Shown here piece by piece: positions 8,169-40,566 of a DNA stretch of 40,624 bases. How positions within the stretch are numbered: the first letter of the stretch is position 1; each line of letters starts with the position of its first letter. The position numbers were made by a program, and so were the translations under genes. The notes beneath the pieces were generated by a model, which saw only the letters and a list, made by a program, of their open reading frames with translations, was not told the origin of the DNA and searched no databases. The stretch lies in IMG/VR virus record IMGVR_UViG_3300042111_000258, positions 1 to 40,624 of that record, one strand, 5' to 3'. Source of the stretch: a virus.

Positions 8169-9074
8169 TCAGATAGCCACATAGCGGCAGCCGGGGTTCA
8201 GGTACATCTGGTAGCCCGCCTCACGCATGGCACGATGGTGGGCGACGTGCTCGCAGTCCCCGCCGACGTACCCGCCTCGCAGGAACGCCTCGGTCCAGTA
8301 CACCGCGAGGCCGCCGAACGCCGAGTACATCGGGATCGGGTGCGACCCCACGGGCGGAAGGAGCCAGTGGAACCACTCCATGCCGACCTCCTCGCGGCGG
8401 TCCCGCCAATCGTTGAGCCGGGCCGCCCATGCGTCGTAGCCCAAGACCTTCGCGACGCCGCGGCCGTGCTGGTGCCGCATGACCGAGTAGGACGCCATGC
8501 CGCCGGCCTTCAGCGGGTCTTGTCTGGTCGAGAGCCGCCCCAGCCACCCGATCGAATTGAAGACGCCGTCGACGCTGAACCCGACGGCGGGGTCGCAGTC
8601 CAAGACGATCGTCCACGCCGTCTTCGGCGCCTCGTCGCGGACGTACCGCAGGCACTCGTTGCGGCAGTAGGCGAGGCGGTTCGTGCGGTCGGCCCCGAAC
8701 CCGCGGATGTCCTCGCCGCCGAGCGTCTCGTGGTCGACAACCACGCCGAACGTCTCCCGGGCATATTCGTCGAGCAGTTGGGCCGTGCCGTCGCGAGAGT
8801 CGTTCTCGAACACGTAGACGCTCGAGTCGTTGAAACCCTTCCGCATCTCCTCGACCAAGAGCAGCGTGTTCGCGAGCGCCGGCCGGGCGTTCCTCGCGAT
8901 CATCACAATCGCCGCGTCGAGTTCCTTCGCCGCCCCGCGGCCGATGGCGACGGCGGTGCGGTAGGACTCCTCGTAGACCGGGTCCACCGGCCAGAAGTCC
9001 TCCGGCCGAATCAGTTGTTCTGGAACGTCCATAGTTCGATCGGTTGGTTGATGATCAGTCGCGGATCGCACCAT
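8169..9074 (-). CDS. Glycosyltransferase, GT-A type (CAP59/GT69-like)
   Basis: 301 residues. The pattern SSVYVFENDSRDGTAQLLDE, then RLAYCRNECLRYV, then WTIVLDCD matches the GT-A fold of the CAP59-type mannosyltransferase family, with DCD as the metal-binding DxD. The start at 9074 is preferred to the ATG at 9032 because GGGAGGTGAGAT lies just upstream; it overlaps the next gene by 64 bp. It sits with a second glycosyltransferase and a sugar aminotransferase, so it likely moves an activated sugar onto a surface or virion acceptor. Acceptor and donor are not shown by sequence. Confidence 0.75.
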   Translation of the reverse strand: MVRSATDHQPTDRTMDVPEQLIRPEDFWPVDPVYEESYRTAVAIGRGAAKELDAAIVMIARNARPALANTLLLVEEMRKGFNDSSVYVFENDSRDGTAQLLDEYARETFGVVVDHETLGGEDIRGFGADRTNRLAYCRNECLRYVRDEAPKTAWTIVLDCDPAVGFSVDGVFNSIGWLGRLSTRQDPLKAGGMASYSVMRHQHGRGVAKVLGYDAWAARLNDWRDRREEVGMEWFHWLLPPVGSHPIPMYSAFGGLAVYWTEAFLRGGYVGGDCEHVAHHRAMREAGYQMYLNPGCRYVAI

Positions 9075-9781
9075 ATCTCACCTCCCAGTTGTCGTATTCG
9101 GTCGCATAGACCGACGAATCCCTCGTTCTCCATCCGAGCGCCGCATCGCAGGTACTCACCCTTGATGAGCGCGACGCTCCCCACCGTGTCGAGGCGGAAC
9201 GGCTCCGTCGAATAGCACGGCGAGTACGGGGGCACCGAAGTGAACCTGTTTCCTTCGTGCCGATACCCCCATGTGTCATAGAAAAACGGCAGCGGCGCCG
9301 GGCCGCCGTTCAGGTGCAACTGGAGGTGCTCGCCGAGCCTGAGCGCCCCGTCGCACAAGTCGAGCGAGCGGTCCATGCCGACGCTCGCGAGGCACGGCCA
9401 CCCGCCGGCGACGGCACGCTTCTCGTCGCCATCGAGGACGTCGGCCAGCCGCTGCACCACGTCCGGCGGCGAGATCAGGTCGCTCTCGTGGATGAGCACA
9501 CGCCCCGCCCCGTGCATGAGCGCGGCGTTGATCGCGACGTCCCCCACGAGCGAGCAGGCGAGCAAACGATCGGCCGGCTTGTCCCACGGCTCGACAACAA
9601 GAATCACCGGCACCGGCGAGTGCTCGATCACGTACCGCAGCATCTTCTCGGTGGCGTCGTTCGTCGGCCGGACGATCCACACCCAGCCGGACACGCCGGC
9701 TTTGTCTACGAGGTGGCTGGTCCGCCGGATGAAATGCTTCCCGACGTCGCCCATCCACGCGGAGATGCCGATGGTCGTCAT
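9011..9781 (-). CDS. Second glycosyltransferase-like protein
   Basis: 256 residues from MTTIGISAWMGDV, which overlaps the aminotransferase stop (ATGA at 9778-9781). It has a GT-A-like layout: a nucleotide-binding half, HESDLISPPDVV with an ESD that may stand in for DxD, and a late SVALIKGEYLRCGARMENEG segment resembling the acceptor loop of GT2/Anp1-type enzymes. The coupling to an aminotransferase supports transfer of an amino sugar. Family assignment is moderate. Confidence 0.65.
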   Translation of the reverse strand: MTTIGISAWMGDVGKHFIRRTSHLVDKAGVSGWVWIVRPTNDATEKMLRYVIEHSPVPVILVVEPWDKPADRLLACSLVGDVAINAALMHGAGRVLIHESDLISPPDVVQRLADVLDGDEKRAVAGGWPCLASVGMDRSLDLCDGALRLGEHLQLHLNGGPAPLPFFYDTWGYRHEGNRFTSVPPYSPCYSTEPFRLDTVGSVALIKGEYLRCGARMENEGFVGLCDRIRQLGGEIWCDPRLIINQPIELWTFQNN

Positions 9782-10857
9782 GCCGAGCACCTCTCGAGCG
9801 CCTCGCACACGGTCTTCGCGTCGTCCCTCGTGAGGCCGCAGTGCGTGGGCAGGACGATGCCCTCGTCGTGGAGCCGGTGCGCCGCGGAGCCGCCCACGGT
9901 GCGAAACGTCCTCATGTGGCGGTGCGTGTTCATCGGAGGGAACGCCGGCCGCGTCTCGACGCCGGCCTGCGCCATCCGGCGGATCACGGCGGCTGCCTGC
10001 ATCCCGCTCTTTCGCGCCGCGTAGGCCCAGTACCCGCTCGTGTCGTTCGGGTGCGTCGCCTGCGGCACGAAGCCGGCCGGCAGGAACTCGCCGTACCAGC
10101 GGAAGAGCATCCGGCGGTGCGTCAGGAACGAGTCCAGTTTTTTGAGTTGCTCGACCAGCACGGCGGCCTGCAACTCCGTCATCCGGTAGTTCGTGCCGGC
10201 TGCGTCATGCACGTACCGCTCGCGTGTCTGGGCCTGACCGGCCATGTGCCGGACCCGCGCCCCGTGCAGCGGATCGCGCCAACCGACGGCCCCGCCCTCC
10301 CCGCAGGTCACGGTCTTCGAGCCGTAGAAGGAGTACGTCGTCAGGTCGGAAACGGCCGGCACGCCGGAACGTAGCGCCCCCAGTCCCTCGGCGTTGTCCT
10401 CGATCAAGGCGATGCGCCGGCCGGTCGCGAGGTAGTGATCGTGCCGCCACTGCTCGAGCGACGGCGGCGGCGTGCCGTAGAGGTTGACCGTGATGATCGC
10501 CTTCGTCCTCGGCGTCACGGCGCCTGTCAGAAACCCCGGCTCGATCGTCCACATCTTGTCGTCGATGCCGACGAACACGGGCTTCGCGCCGCAGTACAGG
10601 ACCGCGTTGGCCGTCGCCACGAAACTGGTCGCCGGCACGATCACCTCGTCGCCACGGCCCACGCCGGCCGCAAGGAGGGCCAAGTGCAGGGCGGCCGTCC
10701 CGCTCGACACGACGTGGCACGGCTGGCCGGTGATGGCTTCCATCGCGGCGTCGGCTGCATCGCACACCGGGCCGCGGGTCAGCCGGCCGGATGCCAGCAC
10801 CGAGGCCACGGCGGCGGCCTCCTCCTGCCCGACGATGGCGGCGCCGAACGAGATCAC
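9778..10857 (-). CDS. DegT/DnrJ/EryC1-family sugar aminotransferase
   Basis: 359 residues, the normal size for the family. It shows the SSGTAALHLAL cofactor-phosphate region (about residue 51), the Asp of IEDNAEGLGA (Asp154), and the cofactor Lys in YSFYGSKTVTCGEGGAV (Lys181). Relatives (PerA, PseC, ArnB, VioA types) move an amino group to a keto-sugar nucleotide, using PLP and usually glutamate. With Gmd elsewhere in the window, GDP-4-keto-6-deoxymannose is a possible substrate, giving GDP-perosamine, but a dTDP- or UDP-sugar from the host is equally possible. Confidence 0.85.
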   Translation of the reverse strand: MISFGAAIVGQEEAAAVASVLASGRLTRGPVCDAADAAMEAITGQPCHVVSSGTAALHLALLAAGVGRGDEVIVPATSFVATANAVLYCGAKPVFVGIDDKMWTIEPGFLTGAVTPRTKAIITVNLYGTPPPSLEQWRHDHYLATGRRIALIEDNAEGLGALRSGVPAVSDLTTYSFYGSKTVTCGEGGAVGWRDPLHGARVRHMAGQAQTRERYVHDAAGTNYRMTELQAAVLVEQLKKLDSFLTHRRMLFRWYGEFLPAGFVPQATHPNDTSGYWAYAARKSGMQAAAVIRRMAQAGVETRPAFPPMNTHRHMRTFRTVGGSAAHRLHDEGIVLPTHCGLTRDDAKTVCEALERCSA

Positions 10858-14026: not shown

Positions 14027-14292
14027 ATCACCCTCACCTTCCTCCGCGACTCCCGAACCCTGTCACTCCACGATGCCTGTAGACGCAGGCACTCGCGTGT
14101 GATCTGCTCCTCCGTCGGGTCGCCCCACTGCCGCTCGCCGTCGCCGTAGACCGGGCGTTCGCGGACGACGCCGCAGTTCATGCACGACCTGCACCACGCG
14201 GCGAGGCCGTCTGGGCTGGACGGGTGCTTGTAGAACTTGCGGGCCTCGAGGTGCTTCTTGCATTCGGGGCAGCGTTTGTAGGCGGGGGTCAT
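14020..14292 (-). CDS. Zinc-finger protein with the shared I..C.R.Q..W tail
   Basis: 90 residues from MTPAYKRCPECKK. The first 35 residues form a CPEC...CRSC zinc-finger-like unit with a GLAAWC motif, common in phage HNH-related or binding proteins. The C-terminus EEQITRECLRLQASWSDRVRESR is the closest relative in this window of the tail on the HTH protein at 7849. Here the tail is joined to a zinc finger instead of an HTH, so it looks like a portable module. Confidence 0.65.
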   Translation of the reverse strand: MTPAYKRCPECKKHLEARKFYKHPSSPDGLAAWCRSCMNCGVVRERPVYGDGERQWGDPTEEQITRECLRLQASWSDRVRESRRKVRVIW

Positions 14293-15029
14293 CACTCCAC
14301 CATCCCCCTCACCTGCTCGATCCACTCCGAAAACAGCGACACGTCGGTGTGCGCGCTCTCCTCGCCCTCGCGGCTGCGGAGCGGGCCGGTGCCGTCGCGC
14401 ATCGTGAACGAGTGGATGCCGGCGATGCGTGCGTCCGAGCCGGAGCCTGTGAAGAGCGGGCCGCCGGAGTCGCCCGGCGCGATCCCGAACTCACGGGAAC
14501 TCGACCGCCTGTTGATTCCGCAGATGAGGAGCGTCCGCTCCCGCCTCTTGATCGTGTTCGTGCCTGCCCGCAGGAGGCCGTCTGATCGCGAGTATCCGCC
14601 CGAGATCGGCCCGGTCGCGCCGTATCCTGCCAGCGAGCACACAGTGCCTTCGTTGTCCGGTTCTGTCGCGTAGCACGGGTAGTGGTCGAGGCCGAAGTCG
14701 CCTTTGCACCGCAGGATCGCGAGGTCATGCCAGCCGATATTCGCCTCGTCGAACTTCGGGTGGACGAACACGGTCGTGACCGGATTGCCGCCGACCGCCA
14801 CCGTCATGGCCTCGTTGACGACGTGCGCCGCGGTCATTGCCAGATGCGGAGCGAACACGACGCAGGTGCCGATCGCCAACCTGCCCGACGGCTCGACTAC
14901 CTCGCACTTCCGCACGTAGGGGGCGAAGGAGGCGCCGTACTTCACGTACACGGAGTCAGGCACGGAGTCGTCGATCGTGCCGGCGGCAGCGGCCGATGCG
15001 AGAGCGGCGAATGCGAGCGTCGACCTCAC
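14292..15029 (-). CDS. Secreted trypsin-like (S1) serine protease
   Basis: 245 residues. A signal peptide is clear (MRSTLAFAALASAAAAG, cleavage near residue 17). The catalytic triad is complete: His69 in MTAAHVV, Asp102 in WHDLAIL, Ser188 in APGDSGGPLF. Several Cys could form disulphides. Its size is right for a single S1 domain. A signal peptide points to action in the periplasm, on the cell surface or outside, not in the cytoplasm. Possible jobs are processing of envelope proteins, superinfection exclusion or lysis. Coupled to its neighbours on both sides. Confidence 0.85.
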   Translation of the reverse strand: MRSTLAFAALASAAAAGTIDDSVPDSVYVKYGASFAPYVRKCEVVEPSGRLAIGTCVVFAPHLAMTAAHVVNEAMTVAVGGNPVTTVFVHPKFDEANIGWHDLAILRCKGDFGLDHYPCYATEPDNEGTVCSLAGYGATGPISGGYSRSDGLLRAGTNTIKRRERTLLICGINRRSSSREFGIAPGDSGGPLFTGSGSDARIAGIHSFTMRDGTGPLRSREGEESAHTDVSLFSEWIEQVRGMVE

Positions 15030-25016: not shown

Positions 25017-25880
25017 ATGACTCACACTCTCCTGTCTGTACTCCACGATCTGTACGTGCCGCTCAGGTCGCTCTGCCCAAGAAGCGTCGAGAACTACGAA
25101 TTCACGATTCGTGCGTTTTCGACGTTTCTTGGGCGAGAGGCGACTCTGGACGACCTCGACGAACTGACCGTCGCGAGGTACCTAACCAATCGCGTCAAGG
25201 AGCGCGCGATCGCCACGGCCGCGAAGGACCGCGCCCAACTCCGCGCACTCCACGAGTTCAGCGTTCGCCGCAAACTTTGCGACCACTGGCCTCAGTATCC
25301 GCCGATTCGGGTGCCCGACCGCGTGCCGGAGGCGTGGTTCTCCGGCGAGATGCAGAGGCTTCTTGACAGTGCTGGTCAAGAGAAGACGGTCCTCGACGGC
25401 ATCCCCGGCGGCTTGTGGTGGCGGGCGCTCCTGCTTCTGGCCTACGACACGGCCGAGCGTGCGACCGCTCTGACGAGCCTCCGCTGGAGGAACGTCAGAG
25501 GCTCATCGGTCCTCTTCGTGGCCGAGGACCGCAAGGGCCGTCGCCGCGACATCCTCCGCGAGATCGGCGAAGACACTCTGGCGGCGCTTGAAGCGATCCG
25601 TGGCGACCGCGGGCCTGACGACCTCGTCTTCCCGTGGCCTCGGACGAAGACGTACCTCTGGCGGCGGCTCGAGATCATCCTCGAGCGAGCCGGCCTGCCT
25701 CACGGCCGAAGGGACAAGTTCCACAGAATCCGCCGGACGACCGCGTCCTACTACGAGGCCGCCGGCGGCTCGGCGCAGCGGCTTCTTGACCATTCCGACC
25801 CGGCGACGACGAGGAAATACATCGACCCGCGGATCGTCAGGCCGCAGGCTGCGCCGGAACTGATCCCGAGGGTGTCGTGA
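25017..25880 (+). CDS. Tyrosine recombinase (phage integrase)
   Basis: 287 residues, with an N-terminal core-binding domain (about 1-95, SVENYEFTIRAFSTFLG) and a catalytic domain. The active-site set is present: Arg148 (TAERATAL), Lys173 (DRKGRR), His236 and Arg239 (FHRIRR), His259 (LLDHSD) and Tyr268 (RKYID). It lacks a long arm-type N-terminal domain, so it resembles simple XerC/D-like or minimal phage integrases. It breaks and rejoins DNA at attachment sites through a Tyr-DNA bond. This is the main evidence for a temperate or prophage life style. Confidence 0.9.
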   Translation: MTHTLLSVLHDLYVPLRSLCPRSVENYEFTIRAFSTFLGREATLDDLDELTVARYLTNRVKERAIATAAKDRAQLRALHEFSVRRKLCDHWPQYPPIRVPDRVPEAWFSGEMQRLLDSAGQEKTVLDGIPGGLWWRALLLLAYDTAERATALTSLRWRNVRGSSVLFVAEDRKGRRRDILREIGEDTLAALEAIRGDRGPDDLVFPWPRTKTYLWRRLEIILERAGLPHGRRDKFHRIRRTTASYYEAAGGSAQRLLDHSDPATTRKYIDPRIVRPQAAPELIPRVS

Positions 25881-27838: not shown

Positions 27839-28754
27839 TCAGACGGCGCAGCCGCTCGTCGCCCGCCACCACGCCACGGTCTCGGCGATCCCTTCTCGCA
27901 GCGTGACCTGCGGCTCCCACCCGAGCACCTTGCGTGCCAGTGAGGCGTCGACCGCACGGCGAGGCTGGCCGTCCGGCTTCGAGGAGTCCCAGCGGATCGT
28001 GCCGTGATGCTCGCACTCGCCGGCGATCAGTTCGGCGAGGTCTCGCATCGTCACCTCGCCGCCGCCGCCGAGGTTGACAGGCTCCGGCGTCTCGATGCGT
28101 TCGGCGGCACAAAGAATCCCTTCGGCCGCGTCGGCGACGTGCAGAAACTCGCGGCTGGCACTTCCGGTCCCCCAGAGCGTGACGTCGCCGGCATCGCAGA
28201 ATCGCCGGATCATGGCTGGGATGACGTGGCTGGACGCCGGGTCGAAATTGTCCCCGGGGCCGTACAGATTGGTCGGGATCACGACGGCCCCCTCCATCCC
28301 GTACTGGGCGTGGTACTGCTTCAGGAGTTCGTAGACGGCCCTCTTCGCCACGCCGTACCCGGCGTTCGTCGGCTCTGGGTAGCCGTTCCAGAGGTCTTCC
28401 TCCTTGAACGGCACGGGCGGCGAGACGGGGTACGAGCATACCGTCCCGACGGCGACCGTGCGGCGGCACTCGTGCAGGCGGGCGGCCTCGACGACGTTCA
28501 GGCCCATCGCGAGGTTCGCGTATGTGAACCTGCCCGGCGTCCGCATATTGGCGCCGATTCCGCCGACCTCCGCGGCCAGATGCAAGACGACGTCCGGCCG
28601 GCAGGCTGCGAACAGTCTCGCCGTGGACCGCGGGTCGGTCAGGTCGCACACGCGCCGCCGCGGCACGGTGACCTGCGTGCAGCCGCGCTCCTCGAGCAGC
28701 CGGCACACGACGCGGCCGAGGAACCCTGCCCCGCCGGTGACCAGCACACGGCAG

Positions 28755-28777
<23 letters not shown>
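27839..28777 (-). CDS. fcl: GDP-L-fucose synthase (GDP-4-keto-6-deoxymannose epimerase/reductase)
   Basis: 312 residues, normal length. Extended SDR fold: TGGAGFLG for NADP(H) near residue 14, the active-site Ser-Cys region VGTVCSYP, and YGVAKRAV with the Tyr/Lys pair. [16 protein letters not shown] and the [12 protein letters not shown] block are typical of Fcl/WcaG. It turns GDP-4-keto-6-deoxymannose, the Gmd product, into GDP-L-fucose. It lies directly after gmd and overlaps its end by 23 bp, so the two act as a pair. Confidence 0.9.
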
Positions 28778-29735
<958 letters not shown>

Positions 29736-29990: not shown

Positions 29991-30301
29991 CACTCCGGCC
30001 CCGCCACTACGCCCTCTGCCACGCCCACCTTCGCCACGTACTGCATCAACGCCCCCACCGCCGCCGCGAGGTCGGGATCGGAGTCGGCTCCCGCGAGCAG
30101 GTCGCGTACGTGCAGCCGGATCGGCTCGGCGGGTGCCTCCTCCACGCCGGTCTCGGTGGTGCGGAATCGGACCAGCGTGACGCGGGCTTCGGCTTCGCCT
30201 CCTGTCACGCTTGACACTACGATTTCACGGACCCACAGGCGGTCGTACGTGGCTGCGTAAGACAGCGGCTCGGCAGCGTACAGCGTGGGGATGTCAGGCA
30301 T
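29990..30301 (-). CDS. Small protein next to the tail fibre, unknown function
   Basis: 103 residues, [15 protein letters not shown] at the start. Mostly beta ([24 protein letters not shown]), then an acidic helical end ([13 protein letters not shown]). It overlaps the fibre gene by eight bases, so a tail-fibre accessory is plausible. Not recognised. Confidence 0.6.
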
Positions 30302-32408
30302 TGATCCTCTCCTCTAGTGCGGCGATGCGTGCGTTGCTTTCTTGCAGTGCCTTGATCAACACGGGCACCAACTTTTCATACGCCAACCCCAGATGGTCGC
30401 CGCACTGCGCGACCACGCTGTCGGCGTAGTCGGTGCCCGCGAGTGCCGCCTGAGCCTCTTGTGCGATCAGTCCGACCTGACGCTCGGTGGCGAAGTTGCG
30501 GTCGCTCTGCGGTATGAAGTCGAACGCGACGGGTCGCAGCGATTCGATGACGCTGGTGGCGTCGGTCAGCGATTCGACGCGAGTCTTGAAGCGGGCGTCT
30601 GAGGTGGCGATCGTCGCGTTGGTGGCGTAAATCTGGGAGTTGACTTGCAGAAGGTAGGCACCGTTGTCGGTGGTGGTGCCGATGAGTACCTCACCGCCCA
30701 GCGCCTGCATGTAGATCGGATACGAAACGGACGATCCGAAACTCTGGCACTGGATGTACGTGCCTCCAGTGCTTGTGTTTACTCCTCCAATGCCAAGCCC
30801 ATAGCCTGCCGAGAAGTTCTCAATCGTCAGAGGGTAGTATGTTTTCGCACCAAGCGCCGGAGTGCCGTTTGCAGATTGATACAGTGACGACGTGCCGACG
30901 ATGTTCAGTCGCTCCGTCGTCATCTGCGTCCCAATCCCCACATTCCCGCTCGCATCCACCCGCACCCGCTCAAGCGAGTCGGTGACGATCGACAGCGAAT
31001 TTGCACCGCCGACCTGCTGGATGCCCGTATCGTCGTCCCCGCTGATCGCCAGTCCCGGCTTGTACGAGCCGCTGCTGCCGCTGCCTGCGGTGACGAAGCA
31101 TTGCCCAGCCATCACCGTCTGCGCGACACCTGTGCTGGCATCGGTGCGACACCGCATCACCTCGCTTAGGCTGCCTGCACCGCCGCCCGTCTGCGCGAAG
31201 AACACCAGCGCGCCAGCGTAGTTCTGTGATGCGGACGAGTCCTTGACGCCCTGAATCGCGCCGAATCCGTAGTCCGCAGTGCTGTTCCCTGTCTGGCCCT
31301 TGAAGAACACAGTTGGTCCGACATTGACCGCAGCGGTCGCCGTAGAGGTAAGGACAACAGTATGAGACGTGCCGTTTGCCGGTGCAGAACCGACGCTGCC
31401 AGACACGGAGACGCTTCCCGACGTAACCGCCGCCGCACCGGTGAACGCCGGACTCGCCGTCGGCTGCACGGACAGCACCGTGCGTGCCGTCGCGGCGTCC
31501 AGTTCCTCCACGTCGCCTGCACCCGCAGACGAGCGACCGAGAATGCGGTTGGTGGCGGAGACGTTCTGGAGTTTGGCGTAGGTGACGGCGTCGTTCTGAA
31601 TCTTCGCCGTGCTGACGGTGTTGTCCGTCGGCGTGCGGGTGTCGCTGAGACGCGAGTCGTTGCCCTGACACGCGGTGCCGCCACTGGTCCCGTACGTCAC
31701 GCTCACCGTGCCGTTGATTGACACGCCCAGCCCCGAGCCGACGATCATCGCACCGGCGGCACCCGTCGTCGCGAGTGGCAGGCGGGCGGCGTCCAGCGTG
31801 CCGGAGGTCACGGCACTGGCCGCGATGGCGATCGTCGTGTTCGACGCCGCCGTCAGGCGACCGTCAGCGCCGACGGTGAACGTGGCGACCTGCGTTGCCG
31901 AGCCGTAGGACGCTGCGGACACACCGCTCGCGGCGATTGTCGGATTCGGGTATGTGCCTGCGAGCGAGCCGCCTGCACTGCCCGTCGGAGTGCGGGAGTC
32001 GGAGAGCCTCGCGTCATTGCCGATGCACACGGTGCTCGAAGACGAGCCCGTCGGAATGCGGGCAATGTCCAGCGTGCCGGACGTGATGTCCGACGCTGCG
32101 TGCGTGTGCGACGACGACGCCTTGCCATCGAGCGCCGTCTGAAGCCCGGTCACGTCGGAAATCGCGTGCGTGTGGCTGCTTGACGCCTTGCCGTCGAGGG
32201 CGGTTTGCAGCCCCGTTACATCAGAGATCGAGTGCGTGTGCGACGCGAGGGCGTAACTCTGGAACGTGAACGACGTGATGACGTTCGAGGCGTCCTTGAA
32301 ATACAGAACTTTGTCGGCGTAGTTCAGTGCCAACTCGCCGTGCAGGAGCGACGACGGGGCCGATGCTCCGGGCGTGCCGTTGCGCTTGAGTTGGACCGGC
32401 GTTGGCAC
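30294..32408 (-). CDS. Tail fibre protein with C-terminal S74 intramolecular chaperone
   Basis: 704 residues from a GTG (TAGTG overlap with the upstream stop). N-terminus [27 protein letters not shown] is like the virion-attachment start of phage fibres. Then come repeats of the [21 protein letters not shown] kind (about residues 55-110), a long Ser/Thr/Gly-rich shaft, and the S74 end: SDARFK with the cutting Ser near 603, [20 protein letters not shown], and a final coiled coil. The chaperone folds the trimer and then cuts itself off. This protein most likely binds the host surface. Confidence 0.85.
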
Positions 32409-33838
32409 TAAAAAGACCCTCCATCGAGCGTCTCAAGAAACGCCACCGACGTGCCGGACGCGGAGTAGGTCAGGATGCCGTCGGTCGTGCCGCCCTGCAC
32501 GGCAGAGACCGTGTCGAGCGCGTTCGACCCGAGGACGCTGCCCTTCGGCACGGTCGCGAGGCCAGTTCCACCCTTCGTAGGCCCGATCGCCGTTGCAGAC
32601 CACACGCCGGTGGTCACCGTGCCGAGCGTCGTGATCGACGTCTGGCCGGCGTAGGCCGTCGAGATGTCGATGGAGTCGGCTGCCACGCTGATCCGATCCG
32701 CCGTCCCGACGGCGTTGATCGTGCTGCCGTCCTTCGTGAGGCCGTTGCCGGCGGTGATCTGGCCGGCGCCGGAGAACTGGGCGAACGCCAGCGACGTCGT
32801 GCCGACCGTGATCGTGCCGTTTGTCGTCAGCACCCAGCCCGTGTCCGCGTTCGTCGTGCCTTCCTCTACGAACGTGAACGCACCCGGCGTCACTTCGGCG
32901 TCAGCGTCGAAGTCGGTGGCACGCACCGCCGCCCCGGACGCCTGCACGACGTAGATGCCGTTCTGCGACGCCGTGTCCTGATTCTTGACGAGCACCCGGT
33001 CGCCCGTGGCGAGCGTCACGCCGTCGATCGCGTCGCCGTTCTCAAGCGCGCTCGACAGGTCGATGTTCGCCGTGGTCGCGGCCCTGACGCTTTGCTTGAC
33101 GTCGAGGCCGTTCCTCGCAGCATCGACGTCCGCTTTCCTCGCGGCGTCGTTCGCATCTGTCGGCGCCGCGAGGTTCGTGATCTTCTGCGAGTTCATCGTC
33201 AGCGACGCCGTCGGCGCAGCGAATGACGTCAGGTTGTACGCCTTGACCGTGGTCTCGAGGTCGGTCACGTTCGCCGCGACGTGTGTGTGGACGGCGGACG
33301 CGGCGGAAACATCGACCGAGGTCAGGCTGACTGTGCCGACCTTTCCGTTGACGCTTGAGACCGGCCCGTACTTGGCCGCCTCTGTCGCGAAGTCAGTGAC
33401 GTCGGCTGCGACGTGCGTGTGGACGGCGGACGCCGCGCTCACGTCGACTGACGTCAGGCTGACAGTCCCGGTCTTCCCGTTGACGCTGGAAACCGGCCCG
33501 ACGAGCGACGCGGCTGTCGTGAAGTCGGTGATCTTGACGCTGGTCAGCGACGGGATGTCGTCGGCCACGAGCGCACGGAACGTCGGCGCCGCGTCCGGCC
33601 CCGAAGTCGGCCCGGCGAGCACCTTGTTGGCCTCGCGGACAGTGACGATCGAGATGAACGCCCCGCCGCCGCCGATAGCGACCACGTTCGCGGCGTTCGT
33701 GCCGCTCGAGCCGGTGCCGATGTAGAGCGTGCCAGCACCGCCCGTGCCGGCGGCTTCGGCGTAGGCTAACTCCGCATTCAGGAGATGCTCAGGAGCCGAG
33801 CCGCCTGTAGACCTGCGGATACGAATGCGATTAGCCAT
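32408..33838 (-). CDS. Second tail-fibre-like protein
   Basis: 476 residues. N-terminus [27 protein letters not shown] resembles the start of the fibre at 30294. The middle has a duplicated unit ([19 protein letters not shown], then [12 protein letters not shown], repeated once) and the typical fibre segment [20 protein letters not shown]...[16 protein letters not shown]. It has no S74 end; it stops after LETLDGGSF. It could be the proximal half of the fibre, with the 704-residue protein as the distal part. Confidence 0.8.
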
Positions 33839-36716: not shown

Positions 36717-37781
36717 TCACGAGAGACCGTCGCACGCCATCAGGAGTGCGCTGATGTGATGCCCGACACGCTCCTCGTCCCCTGACAGGATCGCTTCCAC
36801 GCCAGACCCGGCGGCGTCGATGGCCCCCGCGTGGACGCTCTCGCAGACCGCGGCGTCCTCGGCGAACACGGCTCGGTTAAAGTCCACGACCGCCCTGTTG
36901 AACACCTCGCGGCGTTCCGCCTGTGCCGGCGAGAGGTCGCCGACCTTCGTCGCGTAGACCAGAGACGTGAACTCCGTGTCGCCGACGCCAGCCGGCGAGA
37001 AGAACTGGACCGATACGCTCATGCCGGCCGCGCTCGCGATTGTGCAGTGCGGGAAGACCAGTTGGTGGACGTAGCCGGCAGGCTTGTACGGACGCGACGC
37101 GAACACGTCCTCCATCGATTCAAGCCACGCCGTGGTCTTCGCGGACAAGGGCGTCGACCACGACGAGTGCGGGCCGGCGAATGAGAACTCGCCGCCGTTC
37201 GCGCCGAGCCGGTGGAACGTCTCCGGGTGGACGTGGCCGACGTGGTACGCCTCGAGCGTGTTCTCGACGGCGATCTTCCAGTTGCACCGCATCCAGATGC
37301 GGTTCGTGTCGAGTTTCTCGCCGCAGGCTTCCGTCATCGCGGCGATCGTCCCCCAAGCATCTCCGAGCCACGCCTCCAGTTCGATCGCTTTCGTGCGGCA
37401 GACGAACACGAGGTTCCCGCACCGGGCCGTCTCGTACACGGCGAGGCCGTGCTCCGCGAGGTTCACGCCGTCGAAACTGGGCCGCTTCGGCACCCGGCAC
37501 GGTAGGCCGTCAGGCCCGAACTCCCAGCCGTGGTAGCCGCAGACAAGCGGGCCGGTCCCGCAGGGCTTCGTGACAAGCCTGTTGAGGCGGTGCGGACAGA
37601 CGTTCAGGAACGCCTTCAGTTCGCCGTCGACGTTCTGGACGATGACCTTCCCGCGGACGACGTAGTCGCCGTCTCCGGCGATCTCGTTCGCCATGCAGGC
37701 CGGAGTCCAGACGGAGTTCGCAAGCGCCGTCACCTCGCGGGCGTACTGCTCCTCAGAAGCGTAGTAGGCGGCCGGGATCAT
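36717..37781 (-). CDS. Rieske non-heme iron oxygenase (alpha subunit type)
   Basis: 354 residues; ATG overlaps the SDR stop (ATGA-type, 37778-37781). The Rieske [2Fe-2S] centre is complete: CPHR (Cys62, His64) and CGYHGW (Cys81, His84). The iron site is ENTLEAYHVGHVH (His180, His185), with Asp309 in FAEDAAV as the probable third ligand. Such enzymes hydroxylate, demethylate or desaturate with O2 and NAD(P)H-derived electrons. No ferredoxin or reductase gene is nearby, so host partners would be needed. Oxidising an acyl chain or a sugar is the likely job here. Confidence 0.9.
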   Translation of the reverse strand: MIPAAYYASEEQYAREVTALANSVWTPACMANEIAGDGDYVVRGKVIVQNVDGELKAFLNVCPHRLNRLVTKPCGTGPLVCGYHGWEFGPDGLPCRVPKRPSFDGVNLAEHGLAVYETARCGNLVFVCRTKAIELEAWLGDAWGTIAAMTEACGEKLDTNRIWMRCNWKIAVENTLEAYHVGHVHPETFHRLGANGGEFSFAGPHSSWSTPLSAKTTAWLESMEDVFASRPYKPAGYVHQLVFPHCTIASAAGMSVSVQFFSPAGVGDTEFTSLVYATKVGDLSPAQAERREVFNRAVVDFNRAVFAEDAAVCESVHAGAIDAAGSGVEAILSGDEERVGHHISALLMACDGLS

Positions 37782-38509
37782 TGTGCTGTCATGCCCCCGT
37801 CGATCGTGAGGATGGCCCCCGTCGTCCACTTCTGCCGCAGGAGGTACTGGATCGCCTCGGCGACGTCCTCCGGCTCGCCGAGGCCGAGGAGGTGATCGTC
37901 GACCACGGCTTGCCACTGCTTCGGAGACATCGTGTGCTCGAGCCGCTCCTGCATCGGCGTCCTGACGACGCCGGGGGCGACGGCGTTGACCCGGATGCCG
38001 GAGGGGGCCAGTTCGACCGCCAGCGCCTTGGTCAGCCCGAGCACTGCCGCTTTCGACGCGGCGTAGGCGCTCGCAGCGGCCTGTCCGACGATTCCAGCCA
38101 CGCTCGCCACGAACACGATCGCGTCGGACCCGCCGGCCCGAACGGCCGGCTGCCGGAACGCCTTGGCGACGTGCCACGCCGTGTGGTAGTTCGCCGCGAT
38201 CATCTCGTCCGCTTTGGCGTGCGTCTGGTATCGCAGGGGGATCAGCGAGTGGATGCCGGCGGCGTGGACGACGCCATCGAACTTCCCGTGGACCGCAGCG
38301 ATGTCCGCGAGCACGTCGTCGGTGCGGTCGCCCAGCGACACGAGGTCGATGCTCTTCCAGCCGTGGTTGCCTGCTGGCAGTGCGTCGTGGACTTCCCGCA
38401 GGCGGCCGTAGTCCCGGCCGAGCAGGTAGACGTCGTGGCCTCCGGCGGCCAAGAGTCTCGCCGTGGCGGCCCCGATGCCGCTGGACCCTCCGGTCACGAG
38501 GTATCTCAC
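37778..38509 (-). CDS. SDR-family oxidoreductase (3-oxoacyl-ACP reductase-like)
   Basis: 243 residues from a GTG that overlaps the KAS III stop (GTGA) and has GGAGG upstream. TGGSSGIG (residues 6-13) binds the cofactor, HAAGIH is the NxAG position with Asn replaced by His-Ala, and the catalytic Ser136, Tyr149, Lys153 are present (SAYAASKAA). VNAVAPGVVRTPM is typical of classical SDRs such as FabG. Beside KAS III and ACP, reduction of a 3-oxoacyl group is the best guess. Confidence 0.9.
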   Translation of the reverse strand: MRYLVTGGSSGIGAATARLLAAGGHDVYLLGRDYGRLREVHDALPAGNHGWKSIDLVSLGDRTDDVLADIAAVHGKFDGVVHAAGIHSLIPLRYQTHAKADEMIAANYHTAWHVAKAFRQPAVRAGGSDAIVFVASVAGIVGQAAASAYAASKAAVLGLTKALAVELAPSGIRVNAVAPGVVRTPMQERLEHTMSPKQWQAVVDDHLLGLGEPEDVAEAIQYLLRQKWTTGAILTIDGGMTAQ

Positions 38510-39441
38510 TCGGCGACCTCCACGAGGTCGTGGAGCCTCGTCGTGGACAGGTCGGCGGCGACGGCGCAGTACGACCAGCCACCGCCGAATCCGGCCATGA
38601 CCGTCTTCCCCTTGCCGCCGGTGGTCACGAGCGCCAGCGGGATCGACGCGCTCGACACGTTGCCGAACCGCCGGACGACGCCGTCGACCCACTTTGACTC
38701 CGGCACGCCGCACTTCTCGCGGAGGTGGCGGAGCATGAACTGGTTCGGCTGGTGCGGCACGATCTGGTCGACCGTGTCCATCGTCCAGCCGGCCGCAGCG
38801 AGCGACTCGGTGACCATCATCGGCACCGTCCGCACCGCGAACTCAAAGACCTCGGCGCCGTTCATCTTCAAGTACGCCGTGTCGCCGTGACCGAGCGACA
38901 GATGATCCGCCCCGCTCCCGTCGCTGCCGAAGGCGACGTGCATGGGCGGAGCGTCCTCGTCCCGCTCGAGGATCGTCGCGCTCACTGCGTCGCCGAAGAG
39001 AGGCTCGGTCGCCCTGTCGTTCGGCGAGACGACGGTCGACAGGCAGTCGCCGGCGACCAAGAGGACGCGGGGCACGCCGGCGGCCACGAGGCCGGACGCC
39101 ACCGCGAGGCCGTAGGTGTAGCCGGAGCACCCTTGGTTCACGTCGAACGCAGCACACGCCGTGCCGAGATTGAGCCTGCCGTGCAGGACGTTCGCGACCG
39201 GGGGGATGCGCTGATCCGGCGTCTGCGTGACGACGACGATCGCCTGCACCGCCCGGCCGAGCACCTCGCGGCACGCGGCCTCGGCCAAGTCGGTGAGCGT
39301 CAGGCGATCGACGACACGACGCTCGCGGACGCCGGTGGCGGCCTCCAGTTTCGACGCCGCGGCGCCCCAGCGCGACTGATCTCGCACGGTCGAAGGCACG
39401 GCCACGGCGATGTCGCGGATCGCGACGCCTTGGATGCTCAT
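38506..39441 (-). CDS. 3-oxoacyl-ACP synthase III (KAS III/FabH-like)
   Basis: 311 residues from MSIQGVAIRDI, starting on the ACP stop (ATGA, 39438-39441). The full catalytic set of the family is in place: Cys105 in NQGCSGYTY, His230 in VPHQPNQF, Asn261 in RFGNVSSAS. GFGGGWSYCAV near the end is the usual glycine-rich closing loop. It joins an acyl-CoA starter to malonyl-ACP to make a 3-oxoacyl-ACP, or, in related enzymes, moves acyl groups to other acceptors. Length and residues suggest it is active. Confidence 0.9.
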   Translation of the reverse strand: MSIQGVAIRDIAVAVPSTVRDQSRWGAAASKLEAATGVRERRVVDRLTLTDLAEAACREVLGRAVQAIVVVTQTPDQRIPPVANVLHGRLNLGTACAAFDVNQGCSGYTYGLAVASGLVAAGVPRVLLVAGDCLSTVVSPNDRATEPLFGDAVSATILERDEDAPPMHVAFGSDGSGADHLSLGHGDTAYLKMNGAEVFEFAVRTVPMMVTESLAAAGWTMDTVDQIVPHQPNQFMLRHLREKCGVPESKWVDGVVRRFGNVSSASIPLALVTTGGKGKTVMAGFGGGWSYCAVAADLSTTRLHDLVEVAE

Positions 39442-39656
39442 TGGATTCCCACGAGCGCGGCCAAGTCGCCGACGGTCCTTGCTTCCATGAGCCGTGCGGC
39501 GCTCACGATCACGCCGTACTTCTTGTCGGCCATCGCCATGAACCCCATCGCGCTCATGGAGTCCCACCCGGCAAGGTGGTTCAGGGACATCTCCGGCTGG
39601 CTGGTGCCGGCCGGCTGCTCGACCAGTTGGTCGAGCGCTTCGCAGAACTCGCTCAT
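39438..39656 (-). CDS. Acyl carrier protein
   Basis: 72 residues, usual for ACP. The Ser that receives 4'-phosphopantetheine is Ser33 in GWDSMSAMGF, and the flanking four-helix pattern (CEALDQLVEQ..., ARTVGDLAALVG) fits. It lies between KAS III and the acyltransferase with four-base overlaps on both sides, so all three are made together. A phage ACP would need a host or phage phosphopantetheinyl transferase; none is seen here. Confidence 0.9.
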   Translation of the reverse strand: MSEFCEALDQLVEQPAGTSQPEMSLNHLAGWDSMSAMGFMAMADKKYGVIVSAARLMEARTVGDLAALVGIQ

Positions 39657-40264
39657 TGTGGCTTCCTGTAGATAACGGCCGCAGGGACTCCCATCACGGT
39701 GGATCGCTCCGGCGCCTCGCGGACGACGACGCTGCCGCTGCCAACGATCGACCAGTCGCCGGCGTGGGCGTGTGGCAGGATGCTCGCGTGCGACCCGACG
39801 AGGACGCCCTCTCCGAGGCTCGCGTGCCCGCAGATGTCGGCGTGGCTTGAGATCGAGCAATAGTCGCCGGTCACCGTGTCGTGGCCGACGGTCGCAGCGC
39901 AGTTGACCGTCACGAACCGCCCGATGGACGAGCCGACGCTCAGGATCGCATGGGGGCAAATCACGCAGCCCTCTCCCATCGCGGCCGGCTCGGTGACGAT
40001 CGCGGTCGGGTGAACGAGCGTCCAGAACCGCGCCCCGCGACTGCGGAGCCGCTCACAGACGATCCGCTTGAGGGCCGGCTCGCCGATGCCGCACAGGAAG
40101 ACGTCGCGAGGTGAGAATACGAGGTCGTCAGGCAGGACGGGCAGGCCGCACGCGACGCCCTCGGCCGTGTCGAGGAAGGCGTCCACGTCGATGCCTGCGT
40201 CCCGTGCCCAGCGGAGCACCTCGCGGCCGAAGCCGCCGGCGCCCACGATGTACGTGTTGCTCAC
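39653..40264 (-). CDS. NeuD/PglD-family sugar acyltransferase
   Basis: 203 residues from a GTG overlapping the previous stop (GTGA). N-terminal Rossmann-like part (YIVGAGGFGREVLRWA) binds the sugar nucleotide, and the C-terminal left-handed beta-helix (hexapeptide repeats, e.g. VGHDTVTGDY, ADICGHASLG) binds acyl-CoA or acyl-ACP. The catalytic His is His128 in TVGHDTV, as in PglD. These enzymes acylate amino sugars (UDP-4-amino sugars, GDP-perosamine or sialic acids). Here, next to ACP and KAS III, an acyl donor other than acetyl-CoA is possible. Confidence 0.85.
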   Translation of the reverse strand: MSNTYIVGAGGFGREVLRWARDAGIDVDAFLDTAEGVACGLPVLPDDLVFSPRDVFLCGIGEPALKRIVCERLRSRGARFWTLVHPTAIVTEPAAMGEGCVICPHAILSVGSSIGRFVTVNCAATVGHDTVTGDYCSISSHADICGHASLGEGVLVGSHASILPHAHAGDWSIVGSGSVVVREAPERSTVMGVPAAVIYRKPQ

Positions 40265-40566
40265 GGCTGCTTGTCCTCTTGCAGGCGGTAGCCTAAGAAC
40301 CAGAGGATTCTGCTCACGTCGCGGGCGCTCGCCGTGATCGTCTCCTCGGACATCTGCGGGAAGCACACATGGAGCGCCTCGTGGATTTCGGTCTCCATGC
40401 GAGTCCGACCTTTCAGCCGCGAGTCGATCAAGACCTTCCGCACCGACGGCTCGTCGGGCTTGTTCGGGTCAGGCAGGTACGCCCACCCAGCCGCCTGCCC
40501 TCGGAGACGGCTATATCGCCACACCCAGCGGGCGCCAGCGATCAGGAAGTGGTGGGTCGCCGCCAT
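40261..40566 (-). CDS. Small HExxH putative metallopeptidase
   Basis: 101 residues. IHEALHVCFP (HExxH at residues 62-66) with a downstream SEETI (Glu as third ligand) matches small zincin-like proteins seen in phages, and the tail DVSRILWFLGYRL is also typical. Substrate unknown; such proteins can be phage maturation or anti-host factors. The first gene visible in this leftward block. The ATG has no clear ribosome binding site, so a later start is possible. Confidence 0.7.
   Translation of the reverse strand: MAATHHFLIAGARWVWRYSRLRGQAAGWAYLPDPNKPDEPSVRKVLIDSRLKGRTRMETEIHEALHVCFPQMSEETITASARDVSRILWFLGYRLQEDKQP

Follow-up and report, generated by a model that had tools for sequence, protein, structure and literature searches.

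A phage-borne gene cassette predicted to acylate an amino sugar, with an accompanying Rieske oxygenase

The window analyzed in this report is the IMG/VR virus record IMGVR_UViG_3300042111_000258, a stretch of 40,624 bases, and gene coordinates are positions within that stretch. Five adjacent genes in the window encode a NeuD/VioB/PglD-type sugar N-acyltransferase (hereafter NeuD-type), an acyl carrier protein (ACP), a KAS III-type ketosynthase, a FabG-like short-chain dehydrogenase/reductase (SDR), and the alpha subunit of a Rieske oxygenase (Table 1). An earlier note, made from the sequence alone, had described this cassette as a set of genes running in one direction with four-base overlaps. 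The set is present as claimed, and we add that it lies on the minus strand. Each junction is an exact overlap of four nucleotides (ATGA, ATGA, GTGA, and ATGA), and a fifth overlap, GTGA, joins the NeuD-type gene to a small gene upstream.

Table 1. Positions of the cassette genes and of other features in the window
Feature	Position	Strand	Details
NeuD/VioB/PglD-type sugar N-acyltransferase	39653-40264	-	203 aa, GTG start, His128; TIGR03570 above cut-off
Acyl carrier protein (ACP)	39438-39656	-	72 aa, GWDS with Ser33; Pfam PP-binding 1.5e-8
KAS III-type ketosynthase	38506-39441	-	311 aa, Cys105/His230/Asn261; Pfam ACP_syn_III
FabG-like SDR	37778-38509	-	243 aa, GTG start, Ser136/Tyr149/Lys153; Pfam adh_short_C2 8.6e-43; phrog_3142
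Rieske oxygenase alpha subunit	36717-37781	-	354 aa; Pfam Rieske and Ring_hydroxyl_A
Small gene upstream of NeuD-type gene, HEALH (HExxH) motif	40261-40566	-	no Pfam match
GDP-mannose 4,6-dehydratase (GMD)	28755-29735	-	TIGR01472 equivalog, 495 bits versus cut-off of 415
GDP-L-fucose-synthase-like epimerase/reductase	27839-28777	-	NCBIfam NF047922 best match, below its cut-off
DegT/DnrJ/EryC1 aminotransferase, perosamine-synthase-like	9778-10857	-	Pfam 2.8e-81; pyridoxal phosphate Lys181
Putative GT-A-like glycosyltransferase (GTa)	9011-9790	-	overlaps aminotransferase gene; 71-97% in relatives
Putative family-2 glycosyltransferase (GTb)	8169-8987	-	Pfam Glycos_transf_2, 23.4 bits versus cut-off of 23.3
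Tail-fibre-like protein, downstream of cassette	32408-33838	-	repetitive fibre sequence
Tail-fibre-like protein, variable among relatives	30294-32408	-	about 41% identity, neighbours about 95%
Tyrosine integrase	25017-25880	+	phrog_1 integrase 4.6e-27

The catalytic residues named in the earlier note for the acyltransferase, ACP, KAS III, and SDR are all in place. The NeuD-type protein matches the Pfam families PglD_N (1e-7) and Hexapep (4e-10), and passes the NCBIfam cut-off for NeuD_NnaD (TIGR03570) with 197.5 bits versus 160.8. Its closest solved structures are VioB (7txp), the pilin glycosylation protein PglB (4m98), and perosamine N-acetyltransferase (4ea7), and His128 aligns to a conserved histidine in the first two. 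The KAS III is recognized by Pfam ACP_syn_III (1.5e-19) and by the corresponding C-terminal domain (9.7e-18); its closest solved structures are 4efi and 3gwa, and its catalytic triad is invariant in nine aligned KAS III proteins from phages and bacteria. With KAS III, ACP, SDR, and a VioB-type acyltransferase in one cluster, the cassette has the acyl-group genes of a viosamine-type island.

In the Rieske protein, the residues proposed in the earlier note (C62/H64/C81/H84 for the Rieske center, as well as H180/H185) are present, and E177 and D309 can be added to them. H180/H185/D309 constitute a 2-His-1-carboxylate iron site, and Glu177 occupies the bridging position. Together with N174, all of these residues are invariant across six aligned proteins. 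The protein matches Pfam Ring_hydroxyl_A (1.4e-19) and Rieske (2.7e-11) and, by its ligands, is a true alpha subunit of the Rieske non-haem iron oxygenases. None of the named NCBIfam equivalog models for such oxygenases reaches its cut-off (GbcA scores 68.8 versus 670, and the others lower). The best profile match, nearly full length, is to carnitine monooxygenase CntA (6y8j), a hydroxylase of aliphatic substrates. Between the two metal sites, the Rieske protein and CntA have Glu, whereas naphthalene dioxygenase has Asp. CMP-Neu5Ac hydroxylase, itself a Rieske enzyme, sets a precedent for hydroxylation of an N-acyl group on a nucleotide sugar. The phage enzyme may likewise act on an acyl group, before or after its transfer to the sugar.

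Scans of IMG/VR found eight near contigs (KAS III 94-100% identical) and three distant ones (KAS III 64%, Rieske 47%). The earlier note had left gene order to be compared among relatives, and the order proved to be conserved: the upstream gene, NeuD-type gene, ACP, KAS III, SDR, and Rieske gene follow one another in 11 of 11 viral contigs, one of which ends inside the Rieske gene. Contigs that extend further share a metallophosphatase-like gene, a deoxynucleotide monophosphate kinase, and fibre genes after the cassette. In the longer relatives, the contig with the cassette also encodes terminase, portal, and major head protein, and the cassette reads in the direction of those genes.

These contigs bear on the concern, also raised in the note, that the region might be bacterial DNA outside the phage. 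The window and most of its relatives are metagenome contigs, in which an assembly artefact or bacterial contamination might arise. However, the same junctions recur on both sides of the cassette in the 11 contigs, some of which include head and packaging genes, and we regard the chance of such an error as negligible. Bacterial contamination was therefore rejected, because phage genes flank the cassette on both sides.

The cassette is under purifying selection. Compared with near relatives, the ratio of nonsynonymous to synonymous substitution rates (dN/dS) is 0.02-0.04 for the NeuD-type gene, 0-0.06 for ACP, 0.12-0.16 for KAS III, 0.07-0.08 for SDR, and 0.07-0.09 for the Rieske gene. The overall range of 0.00-0.16 resembles that of the other genes of this phage, and these low values among near relatives imply that the cassette has been kept functional. 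The ACP gene is retained in all relatives.

Bacterial counterparts were collected in one genome scan with a KAS III alignment, which yielded 43 loci. A NeuD-type acyltransferase flanks the KAS III gene in 18 of these, and a Rieske gene in 13. In Undibacterium, two Janthinobacterium loci, Duganella, and an acidobacterium, the genes for SDR, NeuD-type enzyme, and Rieske oxygenase directly follow KAS III. Flagellin is encoded directly after the Rieske gene in one Janthinobacterium locus (L027, recognized by motif) and about 5 kb beyond the cassette in the other (L031, recognized by Pfam), which also has a PhyH gene a few genes away. Genes for a type IV pilin and for glycosyltransferases occur in the Undibacterium locus, Wzz and a sugar transferase in that of the acidobacterium, and a CMP-sugar cytidylyltransferase-type gene in an Asticcacaulis locus. 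These flagellin, pilin, and Wzz neighbours agree with the earlier note's expectation that similar KAS III/ACP/SDR sets occur in bacterial glycan islands. The note had also allowed that the best relatives might sit in plain fatty acid operons, but the loci that we checked are glycan loci.

Genes that could supply a suitable sugar are present in the same genome. The note had guessed a GDP-perosamine-like donor, and the window does encode both a GMD and a perosamine-synthase-like aminotransferase. Among solved structures, the aminotransferase matches perosamine synthetases best (3bn1, 3dr7, and 3dr4, with 183-186 bits versus 159 for the next match), and it passes no NCBIfam equivalog cut-off. It was found in four of the four relatives that are long enough, with 55-100% identity, and two glycosyltransferase-like genes then follow. 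The sugar genes lie 7-28 kb from the cassette and are of the GDP-mannose type, rather than that of the dTDP-4-amino-4,6-dideoxyglucose (VioA) route. The weak model of GTa (pLDDT 45) has GDP-mannose-using GT-A enzymes among its best Foldseek matches, which hints that GTa might be a GT-A enzyme.

An ordinary FabH or fatty acid operon was considered and rejected, because FabH cut-offs were missed and the neighbourhoods are glycan loci. A related hypothesis is that the product is a lipid or else a small metabolite for secretion, serving as a fatty acid supply or a signal, and that the NeuD-type enzyme is a general acyltransferase. KAS III, ACP, and FabG-like SDR are indeed fatty-acid-type enzymes, and an acpP-fabF-fabG set in roseobacter prophages was interpreted as fatty acid synthesis (PMC8224337). 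However, the acyltransferase has the PglD_N sugar-nucleotide domain and clears the NeuD cut-off, relatives of the cassette reside in glycan loci, and the phage has matching sugar genes. Also, the KAS III falls short of housekeeping FabH (168 bits versus 292.1 needed for TIGR00747, and 198.7 versus 249 for PRK09352). We therefore consider a lipid or metabolite product improbable.

Sequence comparison establishes the enzyme families, the residues, the gene order, conservation in the lineage, the sugar genes in the same genome, and the bacterial glycan-island counterparts. We think it likely that the five genes form a phage-borne glycan-acylation operon that functions as follows, and that the acceptor is most probably a virion protein. 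KAS III would condense a starter acyl-CoA with malonyl-ACP from the host, loading the phage ACP, and the SDR would reduce the product to a 3-hydroxyacyl-ACP (3-hydroxybutyryl after one round). The phage GMD and aminotransferase would make a GDP-4-amino-4,6-dideoxyhexose (GDP-perosamine-like) from host GDP-mannose, and the NeuD-type enzyme would transfer the acyl group from ACP to the 4-amino group of this sugar. The Rieske enzyme, with electrons from host reductases, would hydroxylate the acyl group before or after transfer. In contigs that carry a methyltransferase, this enzyme may methylate the sugar. Phage glycosyltransferases would then attach the acylated sugar.

Several observations weigh against this proposal. 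We saw no ferredoxin or reductase, no phosphopantetheinyl transferase, and no malonyl transferase alongside the cassette, so host enzymes must serve in these roles. Characterized members of the NeuD family mostly take acetyl-CoA as donor. About 26 kb separate the aminotransferase gene from the cassette, and a single pathway is therefore deduced from co-conservation. Finally, the candidates for protein glycosylation are weak: GTa lacks a Pfam match and has a poor fold model, and GTb is barely at its cut-off. A conserved gene with a DxD-like motif that adjoins the major head protein gene in two relatives (L070 8732-9514 and L073 8637-9419, minus strand) has a similarly weak match to family-2 glycosyltransferases (E = 0.0088). 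Its predicted model (pLDDT 33) is too poor to use, and the encoded protein is possibly a virion glycosylation enzyme.

A virion protein is the most likely acceptor because the operon is embedded among structural genes, with a set of fibre genes on either side; homologues of the fibre-like gene downstream of the cassette occur on both flanks of the cassette in relatives. The same chemistry could instead be directed at the host surface (O-antigen, capsule, flagellin, or pilin) to change the receptor and block superinfection, much as serotype-converting phages do. Among bacteria, the nearest counterparts of the cassette act on flagella or envelope polymers, and envelope loci, too, typically contain GMD, GDP-fucose-synthase-like, and glycosyltransferase genes. 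In addition, given its integrase, the phage is possibly temperate. On the other hand, the cassette is located in a same-strand structural block between fibre genes and not beside the integrase. Moreover, no polysaccharide flippase or polymerase was recognized among the window genes scanned. Position thus favors the virion as the destination of the acylated sugar, whereas bacterial analogues and the integrase favor the host surface, and we judge a host-surface target to be possible, though distinctly less likely than a virion target. As for a gtrABC serotype-conversion module, neither a GtrA flippase nor a GtrB bactoprenol glucosyltransferase was seen in the part of the window genes that was scanned with Pfam.

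It is very doubtful that the cassette instead modifies the bases of phage DNA, by acylation or glycosylation, to resist host nucleases. The deoxynucleotide monophosphate kinase three genes downstream of the cassette could suggest this role, and phage glycosyltransferases that modify DNA are known (cited in PMC12619734). However, such kinases are common in phages, and the bacterial relatives modify glycans. Also, the window gene calls, which were scanned in part, showed no gene for a hydroxymethylase or a thymidylate-synthase-like enzyme.

Cassettes of related content occur in two other viral contigs, both AT-rich. In L095 (27% GC), the run is DegT-ACP-KAS-SDR-Rieske-KAS-NeuD, its Rieske protein is 35% identical to that of the window, and the contig also encodes GMD. 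L101, from a contig of 124 kb that includes a capsid gene of the T4 type (Gp23), has a PhyH-type dioxygenase gene between the second KAS III and NeuD, and no Rieske gene in its cassette run. Both contigs thus share a DegT gene, ACP, KAS III, SDR, a second KAS III, and NeuD in one run. They differ from the window in being unrelated phages with two KAS III genes and other positions in the tree, and L101 has PhyH in place of Rieske. No third contig turned up when we scanned further for the T4-type cassette. That Rieske and PhyH enzymes, which are unrelated hydroxylases, accompany one gene set fits hydroxylation of the acyl group or of the acylated sugar.

The window lineage is a separate clade (100/97) in a tree of KAS III proteins. 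One of the L095/L101 copies groups with Massilia and Stenotrophobium (97/98), and another is beside a Bacteroidetes protein (100/99). That these lineages branch apart suggests that phages took up such genes independently at least twice. Resolution is poor in the tree of Rieske proteins. As a tentative hypothesis, in which we have limited confidence, unrelated phages separately acquired bacterial glycan-acylation cassettes with interchangeable Rieske and PhyH enzymes, and display a hydroxyacyl amino sugar on their virions.

A third type of viral contig (L096-L100, 62% GC) has a KAS III gene followed immediately by ACP (for example, L098 7095-8254). This pair adjoins a nicotinamide-nucleotide-adenylyltransferase-like gene, and has no NeuD, SDR, or Rieske neighbours matching the cassette.

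The surroundings of the cassette vary among its relatives. The upstream genes differ from one relative to another and are glycosyltransferase-like, methyltransferase, sulfotransferase-like, or lectin-like; contigs of the window's own lineage that reach that far have a methyltransferase there. Five contigs (L003, L004, L006, L007, and L008) have a pair of genes for a methyltransferase and a laminin-G-like lectin between ACP and KAS III. Immediately before its glycan genes, a distant relative (L018 2724-4022) encodes a fusion of a family-25 glycosyltransferase part and a sulfotransferase part. The HEALH sequence of the small upstream gene is a conserved metalloprotease-like motif, and this gene is 84-100% identical even in distant relatives. 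The second fibre gene differs strongly from its counterpart at L002 10618-12576, as expected for exchange of receptor-binding sequences. A trypsin-like protease gene (14292-15029, minus strand; Pfam Trypsin 3e-13) is also conserved in relatives.

The terminase is nearest to those of Planctomycetota prophages (40%, 337 bits), followed by Pseudomonadota (37%, 258 bits). With head modules only 30-40% alike, this affinity is at most a hint of the host. In INPHARED, matches to KAS III and Rieske stayed below 60% identity; most fell in records that lack annotation, and the matches listed gave no hint of the cassette. Some records with KAS III or benA/antA-like matches, such as OR844991.1 and CAKLQF020000006.1, may be pieces of bacterial chromosomes deposited as phage. 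A plasmid search gave short and distant matches only.

Our results suggest that a freshwater-type phage lineage, in which this enzyme set is sited between tail and tail-fibre genes, makes designer sugars for its own particles or for the host surface. Phage glycosyltransferases are known, but a phage with its own sugar pathway, an acyl-ACP line, and an oxygenase would be investing in the fine chemistry of its glycans instead of relying on those of its host. Under the more tentative hypothesis of separate acquisitions by unrelated phages, a custom hydroxyacyl amino sugar would be made from host GDP-mannose and malonyl-ACP, giving a phage-encoded acyl-sugar coat that would vary by swapping of the neighbouring glycosyltransferase, methyltransferase, and lectin-like genes. 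The recurrence of the cassette in a GC-rich siphovirus-like lineage and in an AT-rich T4-type contig, with differing oxygenases, provides a concrete pathway that can be tested, and the outcome would inform on the bacterial flagellin and O-antigen islands that share the same uncharacterized Rieske gene.

The class of chemistry, each enzyme family, phage sugar genes, and a phage-borne acpP-fabF-fabG set (PMC8224337) were already known. A literature search, with most subscription journals outside its reach, found the roseobacter prophages as the nearest phages to carry such a set, and no description of two unrelated phage lineages that encode the whole acyl-amino-sugar pathway together with an oxygenase. 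The roseobacter prophages share phage-borne acyl-ACP genes with the window, but have FabF instead of KAS III and lack NeuD, and an oxygenase is not mentioned. Mycobacteriophages set a precedent for virion glycosylation, as both their capsid proteins and their tail proteins bear glycans (Freeman et al. 2023, cited in PMC12619734). The account given there describes no acyl-sugar cassette.

Bacterial systems are closer in gene content. The wfpC-wfpG R-group locus of Flavobacterium psychrophilum, for which a role in making a 3,5-dihydroxyhexanoyl group and attaching it to an O-antigen sugar has been proposed (PMC6519341), shares KAS-type synthases, ACP, a reductase, and a PglD-type acyltransferase. 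It differs in being a chromosomal O-antigen locus with two synthases and a UDP-sugar, and an oxygenase is not mentioned. The KAS-ACP-KAS-SDR-NeuD-Rieske cassettes of Oxalobacteraceae and Acidobacteriaceae (L024, L027, L031, L032, and L037), for which our literature search found no published function, have the same enzymes, including Rieske, near flagellin or glycan genes. However, they usually have two KAS III genes where the phage has one, have NeuD between SDR and Rieske, whereas it precedes ACP in the phage, and encode KAS III proteins about 36-41% identical to that of the phage.

The viosamine island of Pseudomonas syringae and orfA-N of P. aeruginosa PAK share with the phage an aminotransferase, KAS III, ACP, SDR, and a VioB/NeuD-type acyltransferase. 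In P. syringae, the proposed route to the N-(3-hydroxy-1-oxobutyl)-2-O-methylviosamine of flagellin involves vioS (KAS III), acp, vioR (SDR), vioB, vioA, and vioM; loss of vioR removes the modified viosamine, and the roles of vioR and vioM were shown by mass spectrometry (PMC3927599). No homologue of VioT was found in the phage, and the methyltransferase VioM has a counterpart in the longer phage contigs. Whereas the viosamine island uses dTDP-viosamine, the phage genes indicate a route from GDP-mannose through GMD, with a Rieske oxygenase added and the sugar genes separate from the acyl operon.

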